24,659 nucleotides of DNA from a virus. The stretch covers positions 1-24,659 of the IMG/VR virus record IMGVR_UViG_3300023279_000079; one strand, 5' to 3'. Shown here in pieces: positions 3,338 through 24,659 of this stretch (positions are counted from its first letter, which is position 1; the number at the start of each line of letters is the position of its first letter). The notes below the pieces were generated by a model that saw only the letters and a list, made by a program, of their open reading frames with translations, had not been told where the DNA came from and did no database searches. The position numbers and the translations under genes were made by a program.

Positions 3338-4030
3338 CTACCTGTAATAACCAGCAATTTGCGGAGAAATATACTGCTGGGCAGTCTCCACATTCTGGTC
3401 TGCTGCTATCTTGTATGCCTCATCAGATAGAGGCTTCATAAGTTGGACAAGCTGCGGATTCCAGATCCGAGCCAGTCTTTCAGCCAATCCCGTAGCAAAG
3501 GCATCTAGCCAAAGGTACGGAATCTCTACATTCTGGCCACCCTGAAGGTTGGAATCCTGTATCTGACGCACCCGATAATACTTCAGATACTGGGCACTCG
3601 TCCCATCCGGGACCGGCCAAAGCGTCACAGTCGGGGAAATCAGACGGTCAAACCAGAAGGTTGTCGTGAAACCCTGCTGTTCCTTATTGGGATAACTGGC
3701 GTATTCAGTGCGGCTAACCGGCAGGATAATCCTATCAATTGGATCTCCACTGCCATTGTCGGTTTCCATATAGGCGTCCAGAATGACAACCGTATTGGAA
3801 TCAACATTATAGGTAGCCTGTCCAGCCACCAGCGGAACAGTCACAAGATCCACCGCCCAGAGATTTACACCTTGGTTACTAAATCTGGAAAGGAGCATAT
3901 TAGAAGCCATACGAGCGGCTTCAAGATGTTCTTGCGTTATCGCAGATGGCCGTATGCCTATTAGATTATAGGCATAAAGCGTTATTTCTCCTAAAGACGG
4001 ATTGAAGTTATACGTTCCAGAAGTCGTCAA
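3338..4030 (-). CDS. Head-tail connector / tail tubular-like protein (230 aa), TTG start
   Basis: This protein begins TTSGTYNFNPSLGEITLYAY and has a core resembling small phage adaptor proteins that start MTTSGT (ARMASNMLLSRFSNQGVNLWAV, then beta-rich segments). In podoviruses, proteins of this size and place form the head-tail connector or tail tube A. That role is an inference from position and from remembered similarity. The frame is open further upstream, but those extra residues lie inside the endonuclease remnant. The real start is the TTG at 4030. An AAGGAG site sits 8 bases upstream, and TTG overlaps the TGA stop of the endonuclease (TTGA). The original start of the gene appears to have been captured by the inserted endonuclease (see 4027-4308). 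Confidence 0.75.
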   Translation of the reverse strand: MTTSGTYNFNPSLGEITLYAYNLIGIRPSAITQEHLEAARMASNMLLSRFSNQGVNLWAVDLVTVPLVAGQATYNVDSNTVVILDAYMETDNGSGDPIDRIILPVSRTEYASYPNKEQQGFTTTFWFDRLISPTVTLWPVPDGTSAQYLKYYRVRQIQDSNLQGGQNVEIPYLWLDAFATGLAERLARIWNPQLVQLMKPLSDEAYKIAADQNVETAQQYISPQIAGYYR

Positions 4031-4308
4031 TTGGTTAACTCCTTCTTTTTCAAACGCAATTTTTCTTGCGCGGCTCTTCTGGCAGCACTCCACGGCTTAC
4101 CTTTGTGAGCGTTGCTCAAAATTTGTCGCGTTTGATCTAAAACAATTTTTCCCTTGTGAGATTCACTAATTTTCTTTTTATGACTATCAGATAAAGGATT
4201 TCCGCGTAGAGCGTCTGCCTTTTTTTGTATCGCCTCACCAACGTAAAAGCATTCGTCTCGGTCAAGACGCCAATGTTCATAAACGTAGAAATTACCGCTA
4301 GTAGTCAA
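4027..4308 (-). pseudogene. Truncated GIY-YIG / NUMOD3 homing endonuclease remnant (93 aa)
   Basis: Residues 8-25 (YVYEHWRLDRDECFYVG) match the two sequence blocks that name the GIY-YIG nuclease domain. NUMOD3-type DNA-binding repeats follow almost at once (LSDSHKKKISESHKGK and LSNAHKGKPWSAARRAA). Full proteins of this kind have tens of residues between these parts, carrying the catalytic Arg and Glu. Here only about ten residues remain (EAIQKKADAL, spanning an A7 run), so the nuclease is probably inactive after an internal deletion. The ORF starts at TTG 4308 with AGGAG 6 bases upstream and begins MTTSG, exactly like the 230-aa target protein. The DNA is clearly more AT-rich than its neighbours. 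This indicates a mobile endonuclease inserted at codon 5-6 of the tail gene. Confidence 0.8.
4028..4044 (-). promoter_or_regulatory. Replacement ribosome site and TTG start for the 230-aa gene
   Basis: AAGGAG at 4044-4039 lies inside the last codons of the endonuclease remnant, 8 bases before TTG at 4030-4028. The first five codons are TTG ACG ACT TCT GGA. They encode the same MTTSG as the endonuclease start but use different codons at most positions. Confidence 0.7.
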
Positions 4309-4319
4309 TGTAGACTCCT
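4306..4319 (-). promoter_or_regulatory. Probable original ribosome site and start of the interrupted tail gene
   Basis: AGGAG (4319-4315), a 6-base spacer and TTG (4308-4306) are followed by codons ACT ACT AGC GGT. They encode MTTSG, the N-terminus of the downstream 230-aa protein, but now lead into the endonuclease remnant. Confidence 0.6.
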
Positions 4320-4320
4320 A

Positions 4321-4635
4321 TCAGCGTGTACCGGACTGCTGAACGTACAGAGTTACCGATCCAGCACCGGACGCCACGTTAATCCGAACCCCACGGCACG
4401 GTACCGTCAGTGAGACAGCGCCAGCCGCTGTAAGGCCGGAGGAAAACCAGTTGGCCGTTGCAGCATTGAAGTCCGGGGACATCGGATCATCAAAAGTGTA
4501 CTGAATGGTGAATACCGGGGATCCAGTAACCACCGCGCCAAGGCCCACATTGAAGGGATTGGTCATAAAGCTGACAGCCGCAACAGTGCTGGTACCGGCA
4601 TTAGTCTGAGAAAGCGTAATAGGTTCCGCAATCAT
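4321..4635 (-). CDS. Small putative virion protein (104 aa)
   Basis: The ATG at 4635 has an AAGGG-type site upstream and lies a few bases after the stop of the 54-aa gene. The protein is almost free of charged residues and rich in Thr, Val, Ser, Gly and Ala. It has alternating strand-like stretches (FTIQYTFDDP, GVRINVASGAGSVTLYVQQ) and ends in SGTR. This suggests an all-beta virion component. From memory, comparable small proteins with a VQYTFDDP-like block sit between capsid and tail genes of uncultured phages. No specific function can be assigned. It precedes the endonuclease remnant, so the 3' flank of this gene marks one edge of the insertion. Confidence 0.75.
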   Translation of the reverse strand: MIAEPITLSQTNAGTSTVAAVSFMTNPFNVGLGAVVTGSPVFTIQYTFDDPMSPDFNAATANWFSSGLTAAGAVSLTVPCRGVRINVASGAGSVTLYVQQSGTR

Positions 4636-4802: not shown

Positions 4803-5072
4803 CTAACAATCCCACTTTCTAAGAGACTTATTGATCCGACTATCGGGATCAGCCGCAGCAGAGGAACCCGTCAGTTTCTTCTTTACGCCTGTCATTCTAG
4901 CACAGAATGAGCGTCTGCGTCCTGCATCCATCTCACTTTTCTGCGCCTGTTCACGAGACACAGGAGGCTTTAGATCATGCCCTTCAGTCCGAGCCGAAGC
5001 CCGTCCCTTGGCATTTAAGCCACCTTCTGGGTTTTTACCTTCAGACCGCTGCCAAGCAGGGGATCTAGCCAT
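4803..5072 (-). CDS. DUF6321-like small phage protein (89 aa)
   Basis: The sequence SPAWQRSEGKNPEGGLNAKG, then PVSREQAQ, then SFCARMTGVKKKLT and a C-terminus DPDSRINKSLRKWDC match a small conserved phage protein that I recall as DUF6321. Its function is undetermined. It has conserved basic and Gly/Asn motifs and no membrane segment. A GTG at 5075 is possible, but ATG at 5072 fits the upstream GAGG site better (5-base spacing). The stop abuts the ATG of the 54-aa gene. It sits among small virion genes after the major capsid gene, and a virion or capsid-associated role is only an inference. Confidence 0.8.
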   Translation of the reverse strand: MARSPAWQRSEGKNPEGGLNAKGRASARTEGHDLKPPVSREQAQKSEMDAGRRRSFCARMTGVKKKLTGSSAAADPDSRINKSLRKWDC

Positions 5073-5091
5073 CACTTCCTCAATTGCAATA

Positions 5092-5111
5092 CGGGGGCAC
5101 TGAGGCCCCCG
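5092..5111. other. Strong GC hairpin between two small genes
   Basis: CGGGGGC (5092-5098) and GCCCCCG (5105-5111) form a perfect 7-bp stem with a 6-base loop. On the minus strand no T run follows; on the plus strand CTGCTCTTTT follows. It may act as an attenuator or mRNA stabiliser for the minus-strand operon, or as a weak plus-strand terminator. Confidence 0.5.
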
Positions 5112-5147
5112 CTGCTCTTTTACCTTGCCGTGGGAGGGGGGTACGGC

Positions 5148-5390
5148 TTAGTAATTAGAGGCTTTGCCGCGTGGCGCCCCTGCCGCAGCAGAGGAGAATA
5201 CGCCGCCACCGCTCTTACGAGGCTTACGGCCAGCATGTGCCTTGGACATTACGCCCTCAGCCTTCATGTCAGCCTTACCGCCGCGCTTGAAACCGTTGGT
5301 TCCCTGCATGGATTCCTTGGCAACATCACTGTCACCACCGGCATATGCAGTGTGCTTCATTGCACCAGTTTTTGGAGCTTTACCCTTCAT
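5148..5390 (-). CDS. Small Gly/Lys-rich protein with KRGGK motif (80 aa)
   Basis: The ATG at 5390 follows an excellent AGGAGGT site. The protein is short, basic and low in hydrophobic residues. It contains NGFKRGGKADMKAEG and a C-terminal GRKPRKSGGGVFSS segment. The KRGGK block resembles the repeated KKGG(K/R) element of the 517-aa protein at 10045-11598, suggesting a shared binding or processing signal among virion proteins of this phage. It is likely disordered. No enzymatic motif is visible. It stands alone between the 150-aa gene and a GC hairpin. Confidence 0.75.
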   Translation of the reverse strand: MKGKAPKTGAMKHTAYAGGDSDVAKESMQGTNGFKRGGKADMKAEGVMSKAHAGRKPRKSGGGVFSSAAAGAPRGKASNY

Positions 5391-9340: not shown

Positions 9341-9733
9341 TCAATATGCCATGTCAGGATTGGGAACGCGGCCCTTGGTAGCCACATCTTCCAATATTCT
9401 GCACAAAACGCCGTTGATGGTGATGCTCCACCCATCAGACGGACGGAAAATCAGCCAGTCATGGTCATTGATTTCCACGTCTTTGAACCAAGTATCCGTA
9501 TCGTCCTCAAAAGCAGAGTTGCCAGCCTTTACCAGCAAACCCACTTTGGACTGATACCGATCCTCGTCGGTGGTTTCATGGGGTAGGAGAATACCAGATT
9601 TGGTGCGCTGCGGTCTGATATACACAGCAAGAAGTATCTGGTTATTAAAGATTTCTAGTTCTGAGATGTCCCCCAAGTCATTAAGCAACTTCTGCTTGGG
9701 ATCTACATCATGTTCCATAACCATGTACGGCAT
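9341..9733 (-). CDS. Phage GroES-like co-chaperonin (130 aa)
   Basis: Residues about 28-120 follow the Cpn10 plan. IFNNQILLAVYIRPQRTKSG is the first strand leading to a mobile loop (KSGILLPHETTDEDRYQ). KVGLLVKAG replaces the usual GxVxAVG block. INDHDWLIFRPSDGWS matches the region where GroES has GDIV-F, and the end is GVLCRILEDVATKGRVPNP. Phage co-chaperonins such as T4 Gp31 replace host GroES so that GroEL can fold the capsid protein, so location just before scaffold and capsid genes fits. The start at ATG 9733 has GAGGGG with short spacing; the longer frame overlaps the 69-aa gene. Acting with host GroEL is inferred, as no GroEL gene is present here. Confidence 0.8.
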   Translation of the reverse strand: MPYMVMEHDVDPKQKLLNDLGDISELEIFNNQILLAVYIRPQRTKSGILLPHETTDEDRYQSKVGLLVKAGNSAFEDDTDTWFKDVEINDHDWLIFRPSDGWSITINGVLCRILEDVATKGRVPNPDMAY

Positions 9734-9746
9734 TTTTCCCCTCACT

Positions 9747-9956
9747 TTAGCTACGGGACTTCTTAGAAGCCTCCGTTTCTGCCACTTCAACAAGCTCAAG
9801 AGCCAGTTTCAAACCAGCTATCTTGCCAACTTGGTGGCGATATTCACTAAAGTCAGGCGTACCGTGGCCGTTAGATAAATTCTCTTTCAGTCTCTCAATT
9901 TCATATTCAATCAGTTCAATCAACTCAGCCTTATAAAGCCCGTGTTGAGTAAACAT
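9747..9956 (-). CDS. Small helical phage protein (69 aa)
   Basis: The ATG at 9956 with GGAGGG 5 bases upstream gives MFTQHGLYKAELIELIEYEI. The following EYRHQVGKIAGLKLALELVE suggests two amphipathic helices in a coiled-coil arrangement. It is acidic/helical with no Cys and no membrane segment. From memory, small proteins with YRH-VGKI-GL-ALEL occur between portal and scaffold genes of several podovirus-like phages and are uncharacterised. It ends 13 bases before the co-chaperonin start. A head assembly role is possible from its place only. Confidence 0.7.
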   Translation of the reverse strand: MFTQHGLYKAELIELIEYEIERLKENLSNGHGTPDFSEYRHQVGKIAGLKLALELVEVAETEASKKSRS

Positions 9957-10044: not shown

Positions 10045-11598
10045 CTACTTAATGCGCTTCTCCAACTCGGTTTTCTGCAAACGGCCTACGCCGGATCCAG
10101 CACCAGCAGTCAGATCTTTTACTGAACGCACTGTACGCCCACCACGCTTGCGCGGCATAGGCATCCCACCCGGAACCGGAGGAGCGCCCATACCCGGAGG
10201 CATCGGAGGCATCCCCGGACCTGCCCCCGGCATACCACCCGGAGGCATACCCATAGCAGGAGGGGCACCAGCGCCGCCCGGAGGCATACCGCCGGGGTGC
10301 TGACCCTTCGGGGAAGTCTCAATGTTAATCAGGATATTGGTGCCGCCACCTTTCTTATCTTTCTTGTCCTTCTTAGGCTTCTCACCGCCCATCATGCTGC
10401 TAAGGAGCCCACCATCCTGTTTGGCGATACGGCCACCAGCATAACGCGCAGCCCGTCCACCCTTCTTCAGGCCCTTGGACGATTCCTGCTCATCATGTTT
10501 GTCGTCCATCTTGGAGGATTCCCACTCCTTCATGGACATGCCGTGCTTCTTGGCCAGCTTCTTATCCTGCTTTTCATCTTCAGCAGAACCTTCCCACTTG
10601 GCCTTACCGCCCTTCTTCATCGGGCTAAGACGCAAGCCACGGGACTGTCCCTGACGCAGCAGGGAAGTAGGAACCCCAGCGTTTGGAGGAACCATCGGCC
10701 CACCCATCTGCTTCTTGGCGCGGCCACCAGATTTACGTCCTCCCTCAATCCGACGAAGATTTTCACCTTCATACAGATCACTGGCATCAGGCTCATTAAC
10801 TACTGGACCGGGCAAATCCCTCCGCTTGCTTTCCAGTTCCCTACGAATCCTATTGCTGCGAACCATTTCTTCAATTTCGGACTGCGGAGGACGCGGGGGA
10901 GGAAGGGGCATAGAACCGCCGCCCTGCTTCTTAGCACGGCCACCCTTCTTCATGCCGCCAATATGCTTGATGCCTTCACGCTCCTCGTTGGCATCTTTGC
11001 GGTTCATATTAGCCTTGGCATTTGCAATGTCCTTAGCTTCTTCCTTGTCGTTCTCTACCTTGCCACCCTTCTTGTAGTGGCCAGCAGCGCCGCGCTTAGG
11101 CTTGGAAGCATTTTCCTGCCTACGCTCAATGGCTTCCTGTTCCTTGGTAGACGGACCAGACTTGCCACCGGGCATCGTAGCAGGGCCATAGTTCACCTTG
11201 CCGCCCTTCTTCAGGCCAAAAGCACCTTCCGGCTCACGGGTAGCGCGGGCAACATCACGGCGGCCAGTCATGCCCATGTCCATGTCAGCCTCTGGGCCTT
11301 CGGTCATGCCAAGCTGTTCGTCCTTGCGGTCGTCATAGCCCTGCGGGGCCATAGCAAGCATATCTTTCTTCTTCTTCCGAGGCTTACGGTCAGCCCGGAC
11401 CAGAGCGGCAGCCCCAGTAACTTTGCCACCCTTCTTATAGGCGCGGCGGCTGATCGGGCGCATACCCGTCTTAACGTCAGCATTTAGCTTTGCGGGGGGC
11501 GTCCAGTCCGAAGAATCAACCTTTTCGTCCTTCTCACCGGCAAGTTTACGGGCTTTTGCCTTCATGGCATCACGGCCCTTTTTAGCCATTTCGTACAT
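10045..11598 (-). CDS. Low-complexity KKGG-repeat protein, putative virion protein (517 aa)
   Basis: The ATG at 11598 has AGGAG at 6-base spacing. The protein is Lys/Gly/Arg-rich and mostly disordered. It has eight copies of a short motif (K/R)(K/R/S)GG(K/R), for example AYKKGGKV, MKKGGRAKKQGG, LKKGGRAARYAGG and RKRGGRTV. Between them are charged linkers, and near the end comes a Pro/Gly/Met-rich tract (GMPPGGMPGAGPGMPPMPPG). The C-terminus SVKDLTAGAGSGVGRLQKTE is a block I remember from uncultured marine phage proteins. It lies between the 1354-aa virion protein and the scaffold region. A structural or ejected DNA-binding role would suit the strong positive charge, but no function is established. 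Confidence 0.75.
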   Translation of the reverse strand: MYEMAKKGRDAMKAKARKLAGEKDEKVDSSDWTPPAKLNADVKTGMRPISRRAYKKGGKVTGAAALVRADRKPRKKKKDMLAMAPQGYDDRKDEQLGMTEGPEADMDMGMTGRRDVARATREPEGAFGLKKGGKVNYGPATMPGGKSGPSTKEQEAIERRQENASKPKRGAAGHYKKGGKVENDKEEAKDIANAKANMNRKDANEEREGIKHIGGMKKGGRAKKQGGGSMPLPPPRPPQSEIEEMVRSNRIRRELESKRRDLPGPVVNEPDASDLYEGENLRRIEGGRKSGGRAKKQMGGPMVPPNAGVPTSLLRQGQSRGLRLSPMKKGGKAKWEGSAEDEKQDKKLAKKHGMSMKEWESSKMDDKHDEQESSKGLKKGGRAARYAGGRIAKQDGGLLSSMMGGEKPKKDKKDKKGGGTNILINIETSPKGQHPGGMPPGGAGAPPAMGMPPGGMPGAGPGMPPMPPGMGAPPVPGGMPMPRKRGGRTVRSVKDLTAGAGSGVGRLQKTELEKRIK

Positions 11599-24422: not shown

Positions 24423-24659
24423 TCATAGGTTCATCCTAATTTTATCGTTGTTACTAACAGAACAATAGCCTGGACGCAACGTCAAATCCAAAGTCTCTTT
24501 GGCATCACCGTCGCCCTGATGGCAGTCACCGCAATATCGGTCGAGGACCGGTTGGACGTAACGCAGGTAGCTTACCGTGTCCTGCCGGCCCCACGGCGGA
24601 GGAGTAATCTGGCGAGGTTCGCGGGACAGTGCGATCGAGCCCGCGGCATACTCCGGAGC
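24423..24659 (-). CDS. Fragment of a planctomycete-type c-cytochrome-like protein (78 aa, broken)
   Basis: The minus strand from the window edge to TGA at 24423 is open. It reads SREPRQITPPPWGRQDTVSY, then a YVQPVLDRYC segment, GDCHQGDGDAKETLDLTLRPG, then an unrelated YCSVSNNDKIRMNL. CGDCH is a haem-c attachment motif (CxxCH). The surrounding pattern, VQPVLDRYC-x-CH-GDG then LDLTLRP, is one I know from large exported cytochrome/HzsA-related proteins of Planctomycetota and relatives. In those proteins the chain continues for hundreds of residues after LTLRPG, whereas here the likeness ends at about 24467. The stretch is GC-rich relative to the phage. It is a bacterial gene piece joined to phage DNA. 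Confidence 0.65.
   Translation of the reverse strand, partial: APEYAAGSIALSREPRQITPPPWGRQDTVSYLRYVQPVLDRYCGDCHQGDGDAKETLDLTLRPGYCSVSNNDKIRMNL

Follow-up and report, generated by a model that had tools for sequence, protein, structure and literature searches.

A phage family of GIY-YIG homing endonucleases that probably captures the start of its target gene and supplies a recoded replacement

In the viral contig analyzed here (the window: 24,659 nucleotides, IMG/VR record IMGVR_UViG_3300023279_000079), a homing endonuclease gene (HEG) has very probably captured the start of the gene that it entered and brought along a recoded 5' end for it, and the copy held in the window appears to have decayed since. 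The sequences compared contain an empty site, this site occupied by full-length relatives, a native left and a foreign right copy of the start, a shift of the serine codon from AGC to TCN, a remnant, and an apparent scar.

All features of the locus lie on the minus strand. A remnant of a GIY-YIG/NUMOD3 homing endonuclease (93 aa, 4308-4027; NUMOD3 in Pfam, 2e-6; PHROG 314 homing endonuclease, 1.6e-6) begins MTTSGNFYVYEHWRLDRDECFYVGE from a TTG codon, and the following tail gene (230 aa, 4030-3338), which begins MTTSGTYNFNPSLGE, also from TTG, is similar to the SU10 head-tail adaptor (SU10_adaptor in Pfam, 1.2e-8; PHROG 12985, 2e-14). The preliminary description had reported two MTTSG starts of different spelling, and both are read in the window sequence. 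The first, TTG-ACT-ACT-AGC-GGT (4308-4294), is preceded at six bases by AGGAG (4319-4315), and the second, TTG-ACG-ACT-TCT-GGA (4030-4016), at eight bases by AAGGAG (4044-4039); the second thus has TCT for AGC at Ser and GGA for GGT at Gly. The AAGGAG, which is the ribosome-binding site of the second start, does lie within the last codons of the endonuclease, and the stop of the endonuclease does overlap the start of the tail gene (ATTGA), as had been noted. The upstream neighbor (104 aa, 4321-4635, function unassigned) is collinear in insert-free relatives, and a promoter scan found none close to the junction.

A search of viral contigs with the adaptor protein yielded 80 loci. The nearest three (L004-L006, 87% amino acid identity to the window adaptor) have no insert: their start region reads GATAGGAGTCTAAA-TTG-ACT-ACT-AGC-GGC-ACA-TAT, or over a longer stretch GCTGATAGGAGTCTAAA-TTG-ACT-ACT-AGC-GGC-ACA-TAT-ACA, and runs straight into adaptor codon 6, just as was predicted, with the upstream spelling, for relatives lacking the insert. 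Together with its leader, the upstream copy of the window differs from L004 at 2 of 33 nt, whereas the 33 nt of the downstream copy have at least 11 mismatches to every HEG-free native start. Because of this near-identity on one side and distance on the other, we read the upstream copy as the native start. Positions 4294-4319 (AGGAG TCTACA TTG ACT ACT AGC GGT) would then be the ribosome-binding site and first five adaptor codons of the recipient, which the endonuclease now uses as its own start, and positions 4016-4030 the replacement start of the adaptor. The insertion point, earlier placed between codons 5 and 6, differs among phages and ranges over codons 4-7.

Judging by these relatives, the insert lies inside a coding sequence, as it would with an intron, an intein, or a translational bypass, in which case the first start would serve the tail gene. 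We regard this reading as hardly credible. The second copy provides a complete N-terminus with its own Shine-Dalgarno (SD) sequence, so nothing needs removing. A group I intron-encoded endonuclease was rejected, since Rfam matched no intron in the window and the gene is restored by the second start and not by splicing; an intein was rejected, since the window ORF is closed by a stop codon that overlaps the tail-gene start; and the same stop, together with the SD and complete N-terminus of the second start, led us to reject bypass.

Full-length GIY-YIG/NUMOD3 endonucleases, expected at the same site by the preliminary description, occupy it in at least about ten related phages. Proteins of 219 aa stand at the adaptor start in L037/L039 and L091, and a scan that demanded the motif FYVYEHW, so that its family counts refer to a sample, namely the matches listed, adds L106, L120, L158, L180, L183, L186, L188, and L200; the first six of these, with L037/L039 and L091, bear out the expectation. 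In their N-termini a short native-looking start (MATSN-L, MATSD-T, MATSG-H, MATSG-T, MTTS-V, and others) is fused to FYVYEHW, and after each full-length endonuclease comes another adaptor start of different spelling, in most cases overlapping by 4 nt and preceded by an SD that lies in the last endonuclease codons. The layout of the window, with the SD in the C-terminus of the endonuclease and a 4-nt stop/start overlap, recurs in L037, L091, L106, L120, and L180. Left copies have 2-5 mismatches in 33 nt to HEG-free starts in the window, L037, L091, L120, L186, and L188, and up to 11 in the remaining loci; HEG-free starts used as controls have a median of 5 mismatches, and 90% of them lie within 11. 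For TCN elements at the adaptor start, the right copies have 10-16 mismatches, with the exception of L037 compared to L086. Since left copies resemble HEG-free phages and TCN right copies do not, the left copy is taken as the recipient's own.

The L037 and L091 endonucleases (dN 0.14, dS 1.34) are under purifying selection. The full-length relatives carry the GIY-YIG motif, the Arg, Glu, and Asn residues, and a NUMOD3 DNA-binding tail, and their assignment to the GIY-YIG family is based on these motifs and on profiles; a PDB profile search gave only a weak match to a GIY-YIG protein (E 0.26). Relatives occur in only four MAG contigs, which fall in unrelated bins (Opitutae, beta-proteobacteria, and Nitrosomonadales), and therefore we name no host.

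The right side of the insertion extends beyond the start itself. Compared with L004, the window adaptor gene is 64% identical in its first 180 nt and 87% in the next 360 nt, whereas 46 HEG-free control pairs, chosen with 80-90% core identity, average 88% in the first 180 nt with a minimum of 79%. Left of the junction the identity stays high (92% in the final 60 nt). The drop delimits a foreign 5' tract of about 180 nt (3851-4030), which we interpret as a one-sided co-conversion tract from the donor, as would be expected from break repair. The duplicate had been described as a synonymously recoded version of the gene's own start: the spelling does differ, and it appears to come from this foreign tract and not from re-spelling of the native start.

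At serine codon 4, the HEG-free genes have AGC or AGT in 63 of 64 cases and TCN in one (an unbiased, serine-bearing set), and among the matches listed the copies downstream of an endonuclease have TCN in 11 of 14 cases and AGY in three; Fisher's test of TCN right copies against natives gives 5e-10, a descriptive value, as the loci share ancestry and p-values overstate their independence. Two start-capturing endonucleases (L188 and L200) are followed by AGT and not TCN, and in L160, where the endonuclease starts M-FYVYEHW and nothing is captured, AGC is kept downstream. This pattern suggests that the re-spelling serves escape from re-cutting. The main rival, in our view rather unlikely, accepts the same insertion and co-conversion and takes the spelling for a hitch-hiking donor allele that is AT-richer by chance, with immunity due to the splitting of the site by the insertion. 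It is consistent with foreign sequence throughout the first ~180 nt, beyond the site, with GC3 that is generally lower across codons 2-15 (the difference from the rest of the gene is -0.25 in genes with an endonuclease and +0.03 in natives), and with TCN in the HEG-free phages L047, L135, L181, and L204. However, after insertion a full start region is still present in second copy, and splitting of the site would therefore not by itself do away with the target. The change from AGY to TCN takes two base substitutions and is nearly absent in natives, yet among the matches listed AGC is retained in none of the 11 right copies whose left copy has it, and three different TCN codons are found. The same replacement of AGC by TCT is seen at a tail-fibre gene in L213, whose left copy, ATGAGCAATGTGCAAATC, is the same as in native L018 and whose right copy is ATGTCTTCGGTGCAAATC. 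That this two-base change is repeated, and is met again at the tail-fibre gene, speaks for escape, and a single founding recoded 5' end could account for much of the TCN pattern at the adaptor gene. Another adaptor-like gene (MTTSGTYNFGTTEQIDII) starts with ACC-ACT-TCT-GGA-ACA-TAT-AAT in L084 and L088, with no adjoining endonuclease.

Start capture is not confined to the adaptor: it is also found at the tail-fibre gene (L009 and L213) and at a gene with an MGG start (L095, L149, and L171). In the 63 endonucleases listed from viral contigs that have at least two residues ahead of FYVYEHW, these residues agree with those that begin the next protein at 53 positions, while 10,000 permutations of this sample averaged 18.4 and never exceeded 38; at least two residues are shared with the next gene by 16 of the endonucleases listed, against a permuted mean of 3.0 and maximum of 9. 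On the tree of endonucleases, the capture label needs at least eight changes, six of them forced by well-supported branches. One could still regard the window ORF as an ordinary intercistronic endonuclease resembling the next gene by chance, all the more as most listed members at the MAYAS gene (MKK- and MNN-FYVYEHW) show no residue capture. The permutation result is at variance with this view, which is extremely improbable, and chance likeness of MTTSG is refuted by the empty sites, where left copy and leader match in DNA, a situation repeated in other phages and other genes. The members without capture at the MAYAS gene overlap the stop of the preceding gene in the manner of T4 mobE (PMC2988022), and since they form the majority there, start capture is one of two insertion modes.

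Loss of most of the catalytic domain in the window copy, proposed in the preliminary description, is evident from alignment with the full-length relatives: the ORF keeps YVY-N11-YVG, which agrees with the GIY-N10/11-YIG motif with 11 residues between YVY and YVG, and then jumps to NUMOD3. The missing part contains the catalytic residues R30, E73, and N89 (L037 numbering), invariant in 38 relatives, and for this reason the window copy is classified as a remnant and not as an active GIY-YIG member. A full-length endonuclease is also present at the next gene (MGYAS..) in L097 (2929-3783), and L099 (2929-3201) has an internally deleted 90-aa form with the same flanks as L097 (L099-L101), a second example of an endonuclease that decayed at its site.

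Locus L086 has no endonuclease, yet 58 nt (2487-2544) are identical to the end of the L037 endonuclease and its recoded adaptor start, and past this segment the gene diverges. On the simplest reading, the endonuclease was lost and left the recoded start behind, or the recoded start was transferred alone. An insert-free phage whose native start matches the downstream copy had been named as evidence against capture, and L086 fits that description literally. Phages of this type might be the original donors, their start and leader being an ancestral native allele that the endonuclease entered and did not shape; the 58-nt match to the L037 right copy in a phage with no endonuclease speaks for this. 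This origin is nevertheless improbable: the leader of L086 matches the 3' coding end of the endonuclease itself (which is similar in L091), AT-richness is limited to its first 14 codons, the remainder of the gene being GC-rich, and on the left the segment joins at AAGGCGG, 7 nt that are repeated on either side of the L037 endonuclease (2333 and 2984). We therefore prefer to read L086 as a scar.

From these comparisons we infer that the enzyme cuts and homes and that the recoding serves to evade it, and the following course of events is proposed. The mobile unit would consist of the endonuclease ORF, its own SD, and the 5' end of the target gene in recoded form. The intact enzyme would cut the conserved adaptor start ATG-GCN-ACN-AGC-GGC-ACN-TAY of an insert-free phage infecting the same cell. 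Repair from the donor would then leave on the left side the recipient's SD and start codon with roughly the first five codons, now driving the endonuclease, and on the right side the endonuclease, a new SD in its last codons, and the donor-spelled start together with as much as ~180 nt of the coding region. The tail gene would remain whole, its translation would begin at the new start, and the rebuilt gene would be spared, as its spelling should no longer resemble the target of the enzyme. In the window, the catalytic core of the endonuclease would later have been lost without a shift of frame; the remnant frame, the SD, and the replacement start presumably persist because the tail gene depends on them.

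Several known systems share parts of this logic, and the nearest of them comes from fungi. In the mobile ORFs of fungal mitochondria (atp6, atp9, cox2, and nad3 of Allomyces and Glomus), an endonuclease within a host gene likewise carries a foreign, divergent replacement of the part it displaces, the displaced native part persists as a duplicate, and the hybrid gene is expressed (PMC3630166). However, those elements are mitochondrial and swap the 3' end, the native C-terminus being left as a relic (PMC3630166), whereas the phage element swaps the 5' end and reuses the displaced native start as the SD, start codon, and N-terminus of the endonuclease. The phage element thus works as a mirror image of the fungal mobile ORF and is not a member of that class. 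The free-standing GIY-YIG/HNH endonuclease genes segA-G and mobE of T4-like phages also lack an intron or intein, overlap their neighbors tightly (UAAUGA in mobE), and co-convert their flanks (PMC2988022); unlike the phage element, these enzymes cut hundreds of bases or more from their own gene, and T4-type insertions into genes (mobE in Aeh1 nrdA, mobA in gene 60) split the host protein (PMC2988022), which here is kept whole by the supplied 5' end. Full-length relatives resemble the group I intron endonucleases of TIGR01453 and PHROG 314 in motifs, domain order, and size (219 aa), but have no intron, carry FYVYEHW directly after a few residues, either captured or their own, and match TIGR01453 under the curated cut-off; the window copy, in contrast to the GIY-YIG/NUMOD3 enzymes of TIGR01453, is without catalytic residues. 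Engineered HomeR home-and-rescue drives combine a homing nuclease directed at an essential gene with a recoded, cut-resistant rescue (PMC7968924). The kinship is an analogy of logic and not homology: the phage element is natural, only the 5' end of the gene is recoded, and the cut-resistance is presumed.

In the open-license PMC papers searched, we found no case of a phage endonuclease taking over a gene start and recoding it. On balance it seems probable that a widespread phage GIY-YIG family acts as natural home-and-rescue drives at conserved structural-gene starts, taking over the recipient's start, and that the recoded, cut-resistant 5' end can persist as an immune scar after the endonuclease is gone. 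A free-standing homing endonuclease could then insert among the codons of an important virion gene without an intron or intein, supplying in re-spelled form the gene piece that it displaces and exploiting the recipient's start for its own expression. The natural series of empty, active, decayed, and scar states would make the spread, decay, and resistance of a rescue-carrying drive readable from sequence. Gene annotation is error-prone at such junctions.

Elsewhere, a GIY-YIG-family match in Synechococcus phage S-SRM01 (MW015081.1, 62515-63090) is annotated as "translation initiation factor 2", as is one in phage B23, and in both cases the label is probably a misannotation. Among its structural genes, the window encodes a Chaperonin-10-like (GroES) protein (9341-9799; PF00166, 2e-4), and two Lys/Gly-rich low-complexity proteins with KKGGK/KKGGR repeats (MKGKAPKTGAMKHTAYAGG) are located in the structural block (10045-11598 and 4803-5390). 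An ORF at the edge of the window (24423-24659) has a CxxCH heme motif (YLRYVQPVLDRYCGDCHQG), looks bacterial, and has no Pfam match; this end of the window may be host DNA or a chimera.
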